42,065 nucleotides of DNA, taken from assembly GCA_903928075.1 (NCBI GenBank), contig CAIYPD010000093.1:1-42065 (forward strand), in the 5' to 3' direction. This stretch comes from Candidatus Firestoneibacteriota bacterium (GTDB lineage Bacteria; Oederibacteriota; D2-FULL-39-29). This document shows, one piece after another, positions 2,982 to 15,255 of this stretch (within the stretch, counting starts at the first letter, position 1; each line of letters opens with the position of its first letter). Under the pieces are notes generated by a model. It was not told where the DNA came from, did not search any database, and worked only from the letters and a program-made list of their open reading frames with translations. The translations under genes were made by a program, and so were the position numbers.

Positions 2982-3064
2982 ATTTTGAGCGAATTAGCGA
3001 AATCCGCCAACGCTTTGTGGCGGATTGAGTGAAGTAGCGAAATCCGCCAACGCTTTGTGACGGA
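2982..3064. repeat. Two tandem ~40-bp palindromic repeat units (REP-like)
   Basis: Two near-identical units lie head to tail, each containing GCGAAATCCGCCAACGCTTT followed by a GTGGCGGA or GTGACGGA end. The hairpin cores are 3003-3024 (stem TCCGCCA/TGGCGGA, 8-nt loop) and 3043-3064 (one mismatch). A third copy lies in inverse orientation at 18021-18070, so this is a dispersed family. The upstream part of this gap (2880-2965) holds a weak inverted repeat of CTGAAAAACTCG and CGAAAAAGAAATATTTCAG, possibly a terminator of the preceding operon. Confidence 0.75.
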
Positions 3065-7041: not shown

Positions 7042-7064
7042 GAGAAGAGTGGACGGAAAAGAAA

Positions 7065-7375
7065 GGTCTGTAAAAGTCTATAAAGGTCCATAAAGTCCGT
7101 AAGGTCTAAAATCGTTGAGGGATATTATTAGACGGTCTGTAGATTCTTAAAGGAAAATAGATAAAAACAACTCTGCAGGAGAAATATCTACCTGTTAATT
7201 CCAACCAAAAAATATTGTTTTTGCGCCTGTCGGCTGATGGCATGGATTAGAAGAAAGATGACACACCCTCCAAAAAGATTGGCGGGCATGGATACACGGA
7301 TCAAAATAATAAATATCCCTCAACGATTTTAGACCTTACGAACCTTATAGACTTTTACGGACCTTTATGGACTTA
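7065..7375. repeat. Decamer-armed inverted-repeat element, copy A
   Basis: The 482-nt gap between the barrel gene and lepB is mostly this element. The left arm (7065-7129) is made of ~10-bp units related to GGTCCGTAAA. The right arm (7307-7375) carries the same units in inverse orientation. The inner ends form a perfect 24-bp inverted repeat, 7103-7126 against 7312-7335, beginning GGTCTAAAATCGTTGAGGG. Inside, 7261-7293 holds a 33-bp core that recurs inverted at 9812-9844. No ORF in the element is credible. Related elements occur at 9690-10011 and 14502-14754. Confidence 0.85.
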
Positions 7376-7402
7376 TTTTGTTCTTCTTTTGTTCTTCTTT
7401 CC

Positions 7403-9681: not shown

Positions 9682-9689
9682 GGGAAGGT

Positions 9690-10011
9690 ACATAAGGGTC
9701 TGGAAGGGTAGTAGGGTTTGTAAGGTTTGTAAAGTTTTTAAGGTTTATAAGGGTCTAAAATTATTGAGGGATGTTTAATTGTTTCGGTTGTCTATATGTG
9801 TCATCTGTTTTTATCCATGCCCGCCGATCTTTTTGGAGGGTGTGTATCTGCCTTCAAAAATGCAAATATTATGATATTTGAGCATCCGCCTGGGCGGAAG
9901 CTGCGCTTTTAGCATCTAAGTGTCTAAAATCGTTTAACGATAAAGAACTTTTACGAACCTTTATGGACGTTTATAGACTGCTACGTATTTTTATAGACGA
10001 ACCTTTACAGA
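9690..10011. repeat. Decamer-armed inverted-repeat element, copy B
   Basis: The 362-nt gap between the anti-sigma gene and htrA is filled by a diverged relative of the 7065-7375 element. The left arm (~9690-9778) has units such as GGTTTGTAAG and ends GGGTCTAAAATTATTGAGGG. The right arm (~9930-10011) has inverse units such as TTTTACGAACC and TTTATGGACG. The core at 9812-9844, starting ATCCATGCCCGCCGATCTTT, equals the reverse complement of 7261-7293 with one difference. Two small hairpins lie beside it: the pair AAATAT/ATATTT around 9863-9880, and CCGCCTGGGCGG at ~9886-9897. Confidence 0.75.
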
Positions 10012-10043
10012 CTGTTAAAAACACTTTCAAAGGAGGAATATTT

Positions 10044-11835: not shown

Positions 11836-13389
11836 ATGGCAGCGCTTCTTTTTGAAGGAGAAATTGTGGAAAAAACTCCGGCTCTTGAAATTGACCAGAA
11901 CCTTTTATTTCAACTTCCGCTAAAAATAGCAAGCAAATTCAAAGTTATTCCTGTCAAAGAAGAAGCCGGCGAGATCGTTGTGGCTGTTACCGCCCTTTAC
12001 GATATCCAGATGCTTGATGAACTGGCTCTTATATTCGGAAAAAAAATTAAACCCCTTATTGCCTCTGAGGAAGAGATAACCTCGTCCATCAAAAAATATT
12101 ACGGCGTCGGTGCCGATACCGTGGCCCGGATGGTGGCTGAGAGCGGTTCTGCGGCTGTCGAAAAGAACGGCGAATTTAAAGAACTGGAAGAGATTGACGA
12201 TACGGCGATGGCCCAGGATACCTCGGTCATCCAATTTGTTAACCAGATATTCATAGAAGCGCTTAAAGAAAGAGCCACTGACATTCATCTTGAACCCCAG
12301 CAAAAAGGCCTGAAAATCCGTTTTCGCGTGGACGGAAATCTCCGGGATGTACCCATTCCCCCCGCGCTTAAATATTTCCGCGGCGCAATAGTTTCGAGAA
12401 TCAAGATAATGGCCGAAATGAATATAGCCGAAAGACGCTTACCGCAGGACGGCAGGATAGAGATGAAATCCTCGGGCAAGCAGATAGATTGCCGGGTTTC
12501 TACTATCCCGACACTTTACGGTGAAGGTGTGGTGCTGCGTATTCTTGACAAGACCAGTGTCCGTTACGGATTGAAAGAACTCGGGATGCTCCCGGATACT
12601 CTTATAAAATTTGAAAAACTCATAGAAAAACCGTACGGAATAATTCTCGTAACCGGCCCTACCGGCAGCGGTAAAACTACCACTTTGTACTCCGCGCTTT
12701 CCAAGATAAATTCTCCTGAAAGAAAAATTATGACGGTGGAAGAACCGGTGGAATACAGCGTCGAAGGGATAAATCAGATCCCGGTAAACAGCAAAATCGG
12801 GCTTACTTTTGCCAGAGGGTTAAGGCACATTCTCAGGCATGATCCTGATATTATAATGGTCGGTGAAATACGGGACCTGGAGACCGCCGAGATAGCCATC
12901 CGCGCTTCTTTGACGGGCCATCTTGTTTTTGCCACTCTGCATACCAATGATGCCGCCGGCGCGGCCACCAGGCTTATTGATATGGGTATAGAGCCCTATC
13001 TTGTGGCTTCCTCCGTTGTCGGTATTCTGGCTCAGCGTCTTATTAGGGTTATTGATAATGATTGCAAAATTGAATACCAGCCGGATAAAGAGTATTTGAA
13101 AGACCTTAGATTTAAGATTAGCAACGGCGAAAAGTTTTATAAGGGCAAGGGCTGTGACAAGTGCCTTAATACCGGCTACTACGGCAGAAGCGGTATCTAT
13201 GAACTGCTTGTTATGAATGAACCCTTAAAGAAAATAATAATGGATCATGCTATGACCAGTGAGATTAAAGCGGCCGCCATAGCCAACGGGATGCGAACGC
13301 TCCGGGAAGACGGCTGGGAGAAAGTGAAAGAGGGGCTTACCACCATAGATGAGATAATCAAAGTGACCCAGGAAGATGAGCCAATATAA
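11836..13389 (+). CDS. gspE: Type II secretion ATPase GspE
   Basis: This cytoplasmic hexameric ATPase powers pseudopilus assembly. It has 517 residues from ATG 11836, or 507 from an in-frame GTG at 11866 that has AAGGAG 5 nt upstream. A short N-terminal MshE/GspE-N-like domain (~20-95) precedes the ATPase core: the N2 domain with ERATDIHLEP and RFRVDGNLRD, Walker A GPTGSGKTT (~274-282, Lys280), the Asp box EEPVEYSVEGINQIPVN, Walker B DPDIIMVGEIRDLETAEIAI, and the His box ASLTGHLVFATLHTNDA. The zinc-binding C-terminal module normally has two CxxC pairs. Here the second is intact (Cys440-D-K-Cys443) but the first is reduced to Cys410-K-I-E. It heads a run of gsp genes and overlaps gspF by 14 nt. 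PilB is the alternative, but the pseudopilin set downstream favours GspE. Confidence 0.95.
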   Translation: MAALLFEGEIVEKTPALEIDQNLLFQLPLKIASKFKVIPVKEEAGEIVVAVTALYDIQMLDELALIFGKKIKPLIASEEEITSSIKKYYGVGADTVARMVAESGSAAVEKNGEFKELEEIDDTAMAQDTSVIQFVNQIFIEALKERATDIHLEPQQKGLKIRFRVDGNLRDVPIPPALKYFRGAIVSRIKIMAEMNIAERRLPQDGRIEMKSSGKQIDCRVSTIPTLYGEGVVLRILDKTSVRYGLKELGMLPDTLIKFEKLIEKPYGIILVTGPTGSGKTTTLYSALSKINSPERKIMTVEEPVEYSVEGINQIPVNSKIGLTFARGLRHILRHDPDIIMVGEIRDLETAEIAIRASLTGHLVFATLHTNDAAGAATRLIDMGIEPYLVASSVVGILAQRLIRVIDNDCKIEYQPDKEYLKDLRFKISNGEKFYKGKGCDKCLNTGYYGRSGIYELLVMNEPLKKIIMDHAMTSEIKAAAIANGMRTLREDGWEKVKEGLTTIDEIIKVTQEDEPI

Positions 13390-14497
13390 AACTGCCGGAA
13401 TAACGCGAATCTCACAGCTTCTTGAAACGCTGAAATTAAAAGCGGGTTTTGGTGTTTTTAAGCCTGTGGGCGTGCATGATCTTAGTTTTTTTGTGAGGCA
13501 GCTTTCTACCATGATTTCCGCGGGTGTGCCGCTCTATCATGCGTTAACCACTATAAGCGAAAGTATTGAAAATAAAACCTTAAAGGCCACAGTCCTGGCT
13601 ATAAAAGATAAAATAAAAAACGGTGCGCCTTTTTCGGTGTGTCTTGCGGAATACAAGAATATCTTTCCACCGCTTATGGTAGGGCTCACTAAAGTCGGCG
13701 AGGTTTCCGGACTGCTCGAAACTGTATTTATGAAGTATGCGGACCTTTTGGAATGGGAGGAAGAATTTAAGTCGAAGCTCTTTACCATGATGATTTACCC
13801 TCTGGTAATACTTGCTTTCGGCGTGGTTGTCCTCGTGCTCATTTTAGTCTTCGTCCTGCCCCGGTTTGTCGCCATATTTGCCGATTATAATCAGGCACTG
13901 CCTTTGCCGACACTTATTCTTATGAAAGCCAGCGACTTTTTTGCCGGCTTCTGGTGGCTAATATTTGCGGTCGTGGCCGCCGCGGCAATCTTCTTCCGGC
14001 GCTATATTCAAACCGCAAAAGGGAGAAAAAAAGTTGATGTGCTGATTCTAAAACTGCCTTTTGTCGGCAAGACCGTCCACAAAGCGGTCCTTTCCCGATT
14101 CTTTTTTCTGCTTTCGGTGATGCTCGGGAGCGGAGTTCCCCTGCTTGAAGCACTCTCTGTTACTTCGACAAGTATAGGCAACCGGGTGCTTTCTGATTAT
14201 ATACTAATCGTGATAAAAAATGTTCAGCGCGGTGACTCACTCTCCAAAGCTCTGAGGGAGTTTGACTTCTTTCCGAAACCGGTTATCCAGATGATGCAGG
14301 TCGGGGAGGAAACAGGCAAGATGGAGATTGTTTTAAACAAGATTGCGGCTTCCTACGAAAGGGAAACAGAAACCTCGACAAGAAGACTTATGATACTGGT
14401 AGAGCCGCTATTTATTTTAGGGATAGCTCTTATGGTAGGCTATATGGCGCTGGCGCTATTATTGCCGATAATGAACATAAGTGCGATAGTGAAATAA
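13376..14497 (+). CDS. gspF: Type II secretion inner-membrane platform protein GspF
   Basis: GspF is the polytopic platform protein that couples GspE to the pseudopilus. At 373 residues it contains the two repeated T2SSF four-helix domains, each opening similarly: LSFFVRQLSTMISAGVPLYHAL (~36-57) and RFFFLLSVMLGSGVPLLEAL (~240-259). Three hydrophobic membrane segments are visible at ~139-166 (MMIYPLVILAFGVVVLVLILVFVLP), ~190-207 (FWWLIFAVVAAAAIFF) and ~345-368 (LVEPLFILGIALMVGYMALALLLPIM). Motifs such as MKYADLLEWEEEFKSKL and MMQVGEETGKMEIVLNKIAASYE are typical. The start codon lies inside the end of gspE, so translation is coupled. A ~250-bp decamer repeat element separates it from gspG. Confidence 0.95.
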   Translation: MSQYKTAGITRISQLLETLKLKAGFGVFKPVGVHDLSFFVRQLSTMISAGVPLYHALTTISESIENKTLKATVLAIKDKIKNGAPFSVCLAEYKNIFPPLMVGLTKVGEVSGLLETVFMKYADLLEWEEEFKSKLFTMMIYPLVILAFGVVVLVLILVFVLPRFVAIFADYNQALPLPTLILMKASDFFAGFWWLIFAVVAAAAIFFRRYIQTAKGRKKVDVLILKLPFVGKTVHKAVLSRFFFLLSVMLGSGVPLLEALSVTSTSIGNRVLSDYILIVIKNVQRGDSLSKALREFDFFPKPVIQMMQVGEETGKMEIVLNKIAASYERETETSTRRLMILVEPLFILGIALMVGYMALALLLPIMNISAIVK

Positions 14498-14501
14498 CTG
14501 C

Positions 14502-14754
14502 GGTCCATAAAGGTCTGTAAAGGTCCGTAAAGGTCCGTAAGGGTCCGTAAAGGTCAGTAAGGTCCGTAAATGTCCGTAAAGGTCCGTAATGGTCTGTAAA
14601 AGTCCGTAAGGGTCCGTAAGGGTCTGTAAAAGTTCGTAATGGTCTGAAAGGTACATAAAGTAAAATACTATAGTGAAATACTTTTAAGAACTTTTATAGA
14701 TTTTTAAAGACGGTTATAGACTTTGATAGACTTTTACGGACGTTTATAGACCCA
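14502..14754. repeat. Decamer tandem array with inverted arm, copy C
   Basis: Sixteen head-to-tail units with consensus GGTCCGTAAA (each 9-10 bp, e.g. GGTCTGTAAA, GGTCCGTAAG, AGTTCGTAAT) run from 14502 to 14659. After ~26 nt, about seven units in inverse orientation (e.g. CTTTTACGGAC, GTTTATAGACC) run from ~14686 to 14754. The two arms could fold into a long imperfect hairpin inside the gsp operon transcript. A minus-strand frame through it gives a repetitive peptide (TFTDLYGPLR-like) that is an artefact of the repeat. Confidence 0.9.
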
Positions 14755-14793: not shown

Positions 14794-15255
14794 ATGAAAA
14801 GGCAAAGGTGTACGCGGTTTGACAAGGAAAAAGGTTTTACGCTTATAGAGATTATTACGGTTATTGCCATAATTGCAATACTGGCCGCAGTGGTTGCACC
14901 CAGGTTTGTCGGCCGGACAGAAGACGCAAGAATCGCGGCGGCAAAGGCCGATATTGCGGCGTTAGAGACCGCTTTTGACGCTTATGAAGCCGATAACGGC
15001 AGCTATCCTTCCTCAGAACAGGGTTTTGAGGCACTTTTAAGTATTACTAATATTCCGCCCGTACCGACAAATTGGAAAGGCCCTTACCTGAAAAAAAGAG
15101 TTCCTAAAGATCCCTGGGGAAATCCTTATATCTATGTGAATCCGGGAACGAATAACACCACATCTTATGATATTTATTCCCTCGGCCGGGATGGCAAGGA
15201 AGGGGGCACCGGCCCGGATGCCGATATCACGAATTGGACTGCAACGGAAAATTAA
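14794..15255 (+). CDS. gspG: Major pseudopilin GspG
   Basis: GspG is the main subunit of the periplasmic pseudopilus. ATG 14794 follows GAGGAG (14782-14787) by 6 nt. A TTG at 14761 is in frame but unsupported. The 153-residue preprotein has a class III leader ending KEKG, cleaved before FTLIEIITVIAIIAILAAVVAP, with the conserved Glu at mature position 5. The C-terminal half has the GspG hallmarks: YPSSEQGFEALL, WKGPYLKKRVPKDPWGNPYIYVNPG, and the SLGRDGKEGGTGPDADI calcium-loop segment. A prepilin peptidase (GspO/PilD) is required but is not in the window. The gene restarts after the decamer repeat with its own strong ribosome site. Confidence 0.97.
   Translation: MKRQRCTRFDKEKGFTLIEIITVIAIIAILAAVVAPRFVGRTEDARIAAAKADIAALETAFDAYEADNGSYPSSEQGFEALLSITNIPPVPTNWKGPYLKKRVPKDPWGNPYIYVNPGTNNTTSYDIYSLGRDGKEGGTGPDADITNWTATEN

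Follow-up and report, generated by a model that had tools for sequence, protein, structure and literature searches.

The array between gspF and gspG is an expanded copy of an order-wide family of small palindromes

The window, by which we mean the whole analysed stretch of 42,065 nucleotides, belongs to an assembly of 2.72 Mb that is related to Candidatus Firestonebacteria. It carries a tandem-repeat array with an inverted second arm between gspF and gspG (Table 1). The identities of GspE, GspF, and GspG were taken from HMM matches, that of GspF falling below its curated cut-off, and gene calls were made with a simple custom caller. Behind the gspF stop codon lie 4 nt, the array, approximately 40 nt, and then the ATG of gspG. 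Tandem Repeats Finder reported 16.1 copies of GGTCCGTAAA (78% matches) in the upstream arm and 7.2 copies of the inverse unit in the downstream arm, which, together with the sequence itself, confirmed the 16 direct and about seven inverse decamers described in an earlier note on this DNA. One step within the array measured 9 nt instead of 10. Since the units abut at 9-10 nt and there are no unique spacers, the array is not a CRISPR, as the same note had stated. The segments 14572-14639 and 14684-14751 formed an inverted repeat with 74% complementarity, and the RNA of the region was predicted to fold at -91.2 kcal/mol (z = -6.3 versus shuffles). No Rfam family matched the window at or above its gathering threshold.

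Table 1. Positions of the three array-armed elements of the window and of the genes next to the gspF-gspG array
Feature	Position	Strand	Remark
gspF, upstream neighbour	13376..14497	+	HMM match
gspF-gspG element, upstream arm with 16 units in tandem; consensus GGTCCGTAAA, general form GTCYRTAAR	14502..14660	+	Sense orientation, 4 nt past gspF stop
gspF-gspG element, loop joining the arms	14661..14679	.	
gspF-gspG element, downstream inverted arm: about 7 degenerate units (TTTAYRGAC)	14680..14751	-	Repeat finding, inverted-repeat alignment
gspG, downstream neighbour	14794..15255	+	HMM match
Second element, upstream arm: 4 units, then GGTCTAAAATCGTTGAGGGATATT	7043..7126	+	
Second element, core	7127..7311	.	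34 nt at 97% in common with core at 9812-9845, opposite orientation
Second element, downstream arm	7312..7395	-	77% complementary to 7043-7126
Third element, upstream arm with conserved inner end	9687..9775	+	
Third element, downstream arm, directly upstream of htrA start	9921..10020	-	

At 7043-7395 and 9687-10020, the window contained two sister elements made of the same unit, which the earlier note had missed. A core repeat consisting of ACACACCCTCCAAAAAGATTGGCGGGCATGGATA and ATCTGTGTCATCTGTTTTTATC stretches (7261-7294 and 9812-9845 in the window, and many other loci) occurred genome-wide in both orientations. The window also contained, at 2985-3064, two tandem copies of a 40-nt unit, TTGAGCGAAGTAGCGAAATCCGCCAACGCTTTGTGACGGA, which were 92% alike.

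The two-unit pattern matched 194 times in the 2.72-Mb genome (99 + 95), compared to 0 + 0 for the reversed control. Sequence fetched around the matches, 650 kb in all, contained 118 arrays versus 4 in the reversed control; since these stretches were chosen for arrays, the densities are not genome averages. All but one of the arrays (117 of 118) were intergenic, at a median distance of 16 nt behind a stop codon. The three-unit 9-mer pattern was present in 9 of the 9 sampled genomes of the order, which is one of uncultured Firestonebacteria, with 120-272 matches each except for G003, which had only 3. G003 has lost nearly all of its arrays, keeping the unit as a remnant, and its gaps at the corresponding places measured 16-102 nt. 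The 36 other genomes of the phylum gave no match to the three-unit 9-mer pattern, the search of 84,980 species genomes with the 10-mer pattern gave outside this group only isolated chance matches, none longer than 3 units, and viral contigs gave four single matches and no arrays. Nor did we find a description of this repeat family in the literature. The earlier note had named a single-locus origin with no family as grounds against its own reading; the arrays instead form a family which, judged by these pattern searches, is order-wide and order-restricted.

The units of the window genome (family f1) read GTCYRTAAR with a mixed spacing of 217 steps of 9 nt versus 179 steps of 10 nt, and those of the sister family (f2) read GTTYRTAAN with a strict spacing of 9 nt (102 of 103 steps in G005). 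Every unit contained a conserved YR step followed by TAA. Most arms had four units, within a range of 3 to 16. Tandem gene pairs enclosed 27 distinct two-armed elements, of which 12 had four units in each arm and 6 had four and three, with loops of 14-410 nt. The window copy (16 + 7) was the largest element in the sample, and a single arm of 15 units was found in G001. The gspF-gspG array is an expanded outlier copy of an order-wide family of small palindromes. Cores were common to unlinked loci, the dispersed copies sharing sequence. A stop codon lay no more than about 15 nt from the start of the usual element. Sense units sat at a median of 2-12 nt behind the stop, depending on the genome, and arrays were fewer in divergent gaps (6/64) than in tandem or convergent ones (138/555; p 0.005). 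A second small repeat, GCAAAGCTTTTCTCGAGAGGAAGGATATATAGATGTCAACTACCGTTGACATAGCGAGATAAG, was found exactly between array units at L038 9840-9920, L061 1260-1330, L042 1360-1420, L135 1240-1300, and L141 480-545, and in G004 its inner hairpin showed a compensatory change from TGTCAAC/GTTGACA to TGCCAAC/GTTGGCA.

The same slots were occupied in different species with changing content. At gspF-gspG, four f2 species had in common a 4 + 4 palindrome directly behind the gspF stop, the loop being about 100 nt longer in G005; G001 had a four-unit one-sided array, G002 a different palindromic repeat with ACTAAG units, and G003 a bare gap in which the pilin motif lay only 52 nt past the stop. An ACTAAG-like repeat was located in array slots at L188 18865-19095 (the gspF-gspG gap of G002, where it is palindromic) and at L123 4166-4538 (G001). 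When gaps were matched by their flanking genes, four of the five array gaps of G000 were also arrayed in G001, compared to 0 of 27 array-free gaps (p 1e-4), a comparison that is only partly unbiased since one portion of the G001 sequence, L123, was selected for its arrays. The f2 slots were common between species in 11 of 11 cases versus 1 of 53 distinct other gaps, the regions of the other species having been fetched by homology to G005. Few slots entered the comparisons between species, and some of these are not independent. A comparison of unit numbers, which the earlier note had proposed for strains, revealed differences between species at orthologous gaps: 14 chained units versus 4 at gspF-gspG, and 8 versus about 23 at the slot at 7043.

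At common slots, the content was in many cases either the same throughout or plainly different, with whole changes of subtype from TAAC to TAAG among the latter. Elements that persisted between species were often identical (70/70, 79/79, and 69/69 positions) while their coding flanks were 81-93% identical; the genomes are MAGs, probably from short-read assemblies, in which repeat collapse could give false identity and repeats may be chimeric. Identity above that of the flanks could reflect purifying selection and so point to a host function, which counts against the mobile reading favoured below. The family is a case in which slot conservation and sequence turnover can be told apart, a point of relevance to the position of REP-like palindromes at the ends of genes in many bacteria. 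Other sequences of high identity were seen as well: a module of about 120 nt (L161 18406-18531 in G005 and many sites in G006-G008) was 95-100% identical between species whose coding genes were about 80-88% identical, and a 370-nt intergenic element with a hairpin-rich core (L143 1185-1556 versus L144 920-1291) was approximately 98% identical between species with coding flanks at 87%.

One clean empty/filled site was found. In G006 and G008, the gap before a gene which we take to be ispF, from our reading of the protein start MNQQRIGLGYDIHP, was 30 nt long and read ATGACA-TATATAT. In G007, a 130-nt element, AAAGTTAATAAGG...CCTTACAAACTTTATAAACTTT, was situated behind a stop codon, exactly between ATGACA and TATATAT, and the flanks were unchanged. 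An apparent empty site in G007 was traced to a mapping error; G007 is filled there, and G006 and G008 are empty. No target-site duplication was present at this single tested site. At this one site, an element was inserted or excised as a unit; the event was either an insertion or a precise excision, neither of which left a duplication.

We consider it likely that the family consists of non-autonomous, MITE/REP-like mobile palindromes with tandem-repeat arms. Of the readings offered in the earlier note, the best fit is a mobile palindrome growing by slippage: the existence of a family, the precise present/absent site, and the variable unit numbers all speak for it, although slippage itself is a putative step. 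Each copy would enter (or leave) a site whole and would not duplicate its target. Slippage, or unequal exchange among the short repeats, would then shift the unit number, while nesting or recombination with other copies may replace loops and arms. Several observations weigh against this reading: the clean empty/filled site is a single one, no transposase with these ends was found, persisting elements are often identical between species, and arms pair with their own partners no better than with foreign arms. The position behind stop codons is probably where insertions do the least harm, those elsewhere perhaps having been purged. Expansion at gspF-gspG could split the expression of the secretion operon; any influence on gspF-gspG expression would be a side effect of the hairpin in the RNA.

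The transposase expected to mobilise these elements would carry their ends, with flanks starting AAAGTTNNTAAG. Genes for Y1 transposases were present in 8 of the 9 genomes of the order and absent only from the array-poor G003. None of the Y1 transposases of the order carried these ends, and unrelated palindromes flanked them. RAYT was rejected as the mobiliser since it has palindromic ends of its own, despite its suggestive absence from G003. The RAYT-like Y1 genes of L195-L214 were flanked by their own palindromes, of types GTGACTGTCACAC and GGGACAGNNACC. A partner or cargo gene beside the arrays was also sought; the upstream genes belonged to varied, unrelated families, none of them recurrent.

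Alternatively, the elements may be host regulatory RNA hairpins at gene ends, which would be transcribed, would stabilise the upstream message or, as the earlier note suggested, attenuate the downstream genes, and would stay at fixed slots through selection of structure rather than sequence. The location of the sense units directly behind stop codons, the depletion from divergent gaps, the retention of slots while the sequence turns over, the z value of the window RNA, and the occupation of the gspF-gspG slot in two families are all consistent with such a role. Avoidance of promoters alone, however, would yield the same placement. Selection on a sense RNA hairpin looked significant at first (24/34) and failed the control with array-free gaps: sense RNA folded better than antisense in 18 of 27 elements (Wilcoxon p 0.013), and likewise in 76 of 103 array-free gaps, so the bias does not discriminate. 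Units paired only with the opposite arm. The arms of one element paired with each other no better than with those of other elements, and no compensatory pairing between own arms was detected. Canonical terminator-like sites were rare both in gaps with arrays (2/67) and in those without (17/226), which gave no sign that arrays replace terminators. Moreover, at least one lineage can do without the elements, as the near-total lack of arrays in G003 shows. A regulatory hairpin is an unlikely explanation in our judgement.

The earlier note had also observed that one unit equals about one helical turn, so that every copy would face the same side of the DNA, and had suggested a phased protein-binding array. 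The protein would be a sequence-specific one of the nucleoid or insulator type. The decamer spacing at the window locus and the YR step and TAA kept in every unit agree with a phased array of this kind. Nevertheless, 9-nt and 10-nt steps are about equally frequent in the window genome and the sister family is strictly at 9; since a 9-bp spacing drifts around the helix, phasing does not hold in general. We identified no candidate protein and regard this explanation as very improbable. Very improbable as well is simple slippage without transposition, in which short repeats arose and grew locally at gene ends. The strong variation in unit number (3-16) and the duplicated sub-blocks of some loci would be expected from it, but it fails on the common cores, the inverted second arm, the 4 + 4 standard, and the exact 130-nt insertion. 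One locus with duplicated sub-blocks is L152 8189-8552 of G005. It is also conceivable, if rather doubtful, that the conserved slots behind particular genes are loading sites at which whole array-armed palindromes are exchanged as cassettes, both within and between species, without target duplication. On this reading, the element at one slot would often be either identical to the letter or largely different, and point-mutated intermediates would be fewer than expected. A mobile family of palindromes remains our preferred reading, and what appeared to be a one-off curiosity becomes a repeat family that is found across an order, follows a simple rule of construction (about four short units per arm, behind stops), and has a testable history.

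Several known systems resemble this family in part; in form it comes closest to MITEs and to BrickBuilt, and in placement it is like REP elements. Bacterial MITEs such as ERIC, Correia/NEMIS, and RUP are short, dispersed, non-coding intergenic elements with terminal inverted repeats that form RNA hairpins (PMC2229807). The present elements share with them the inverted arms around a short non-coding core, the many dispersed copies, and one empty/filled site; they differ in that each arm is built of some four 9-10-nt units in tandem and can grow to 16, that the one site tested had no target duplication, and that no parent transposon was found among the Y1 transposases and the genes upstream of arrays. 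REP/BIME elements with RAYT are palindromic repeats that occur by the hundred, chiefly where neighbouring genes are tandem or convergent, and less than 20 bp from the upstream 3' end (PMC3733652). The present elements likewise follow 3' ends in gaps of these two kinds; however, they lack the GTAG/CGTC-tagged hairpin of 20-40 bp, their units are 9-10-mers in arrays, and the RAYT-like genes here have unrelated palindromes in their flanks. The BrickBuilt MITE of Porphyromonas gingivalis, always intergenic, contains an internal minisatellite with a 23-nt unit, in 19 copies (PMC4596501). It is similar as a miniature intergenic element containing a tandem repeat, whereas here both inverted arms consist of the short units and the family extends through an order. 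The TAACTGA heptamer arrays of Beggiatoaceae, Cyanobacteria, and Bacteroidetes are direct only and lie mostly just upstream of start codons (PMC4679880). They too are short intergenic tandem units with TAA at many loci, but the units here are 9-10-mers, have an inverted arm, and stand just behind stop codons. The G+C-rich hairpin and U tract of an intrinsic terminator were seen in just two of the array gaps. Lacking a REP tag and a RAYT with matching ends, and showing no duplicated target at the tested site, the family is MITE-like and stands outside any named family.
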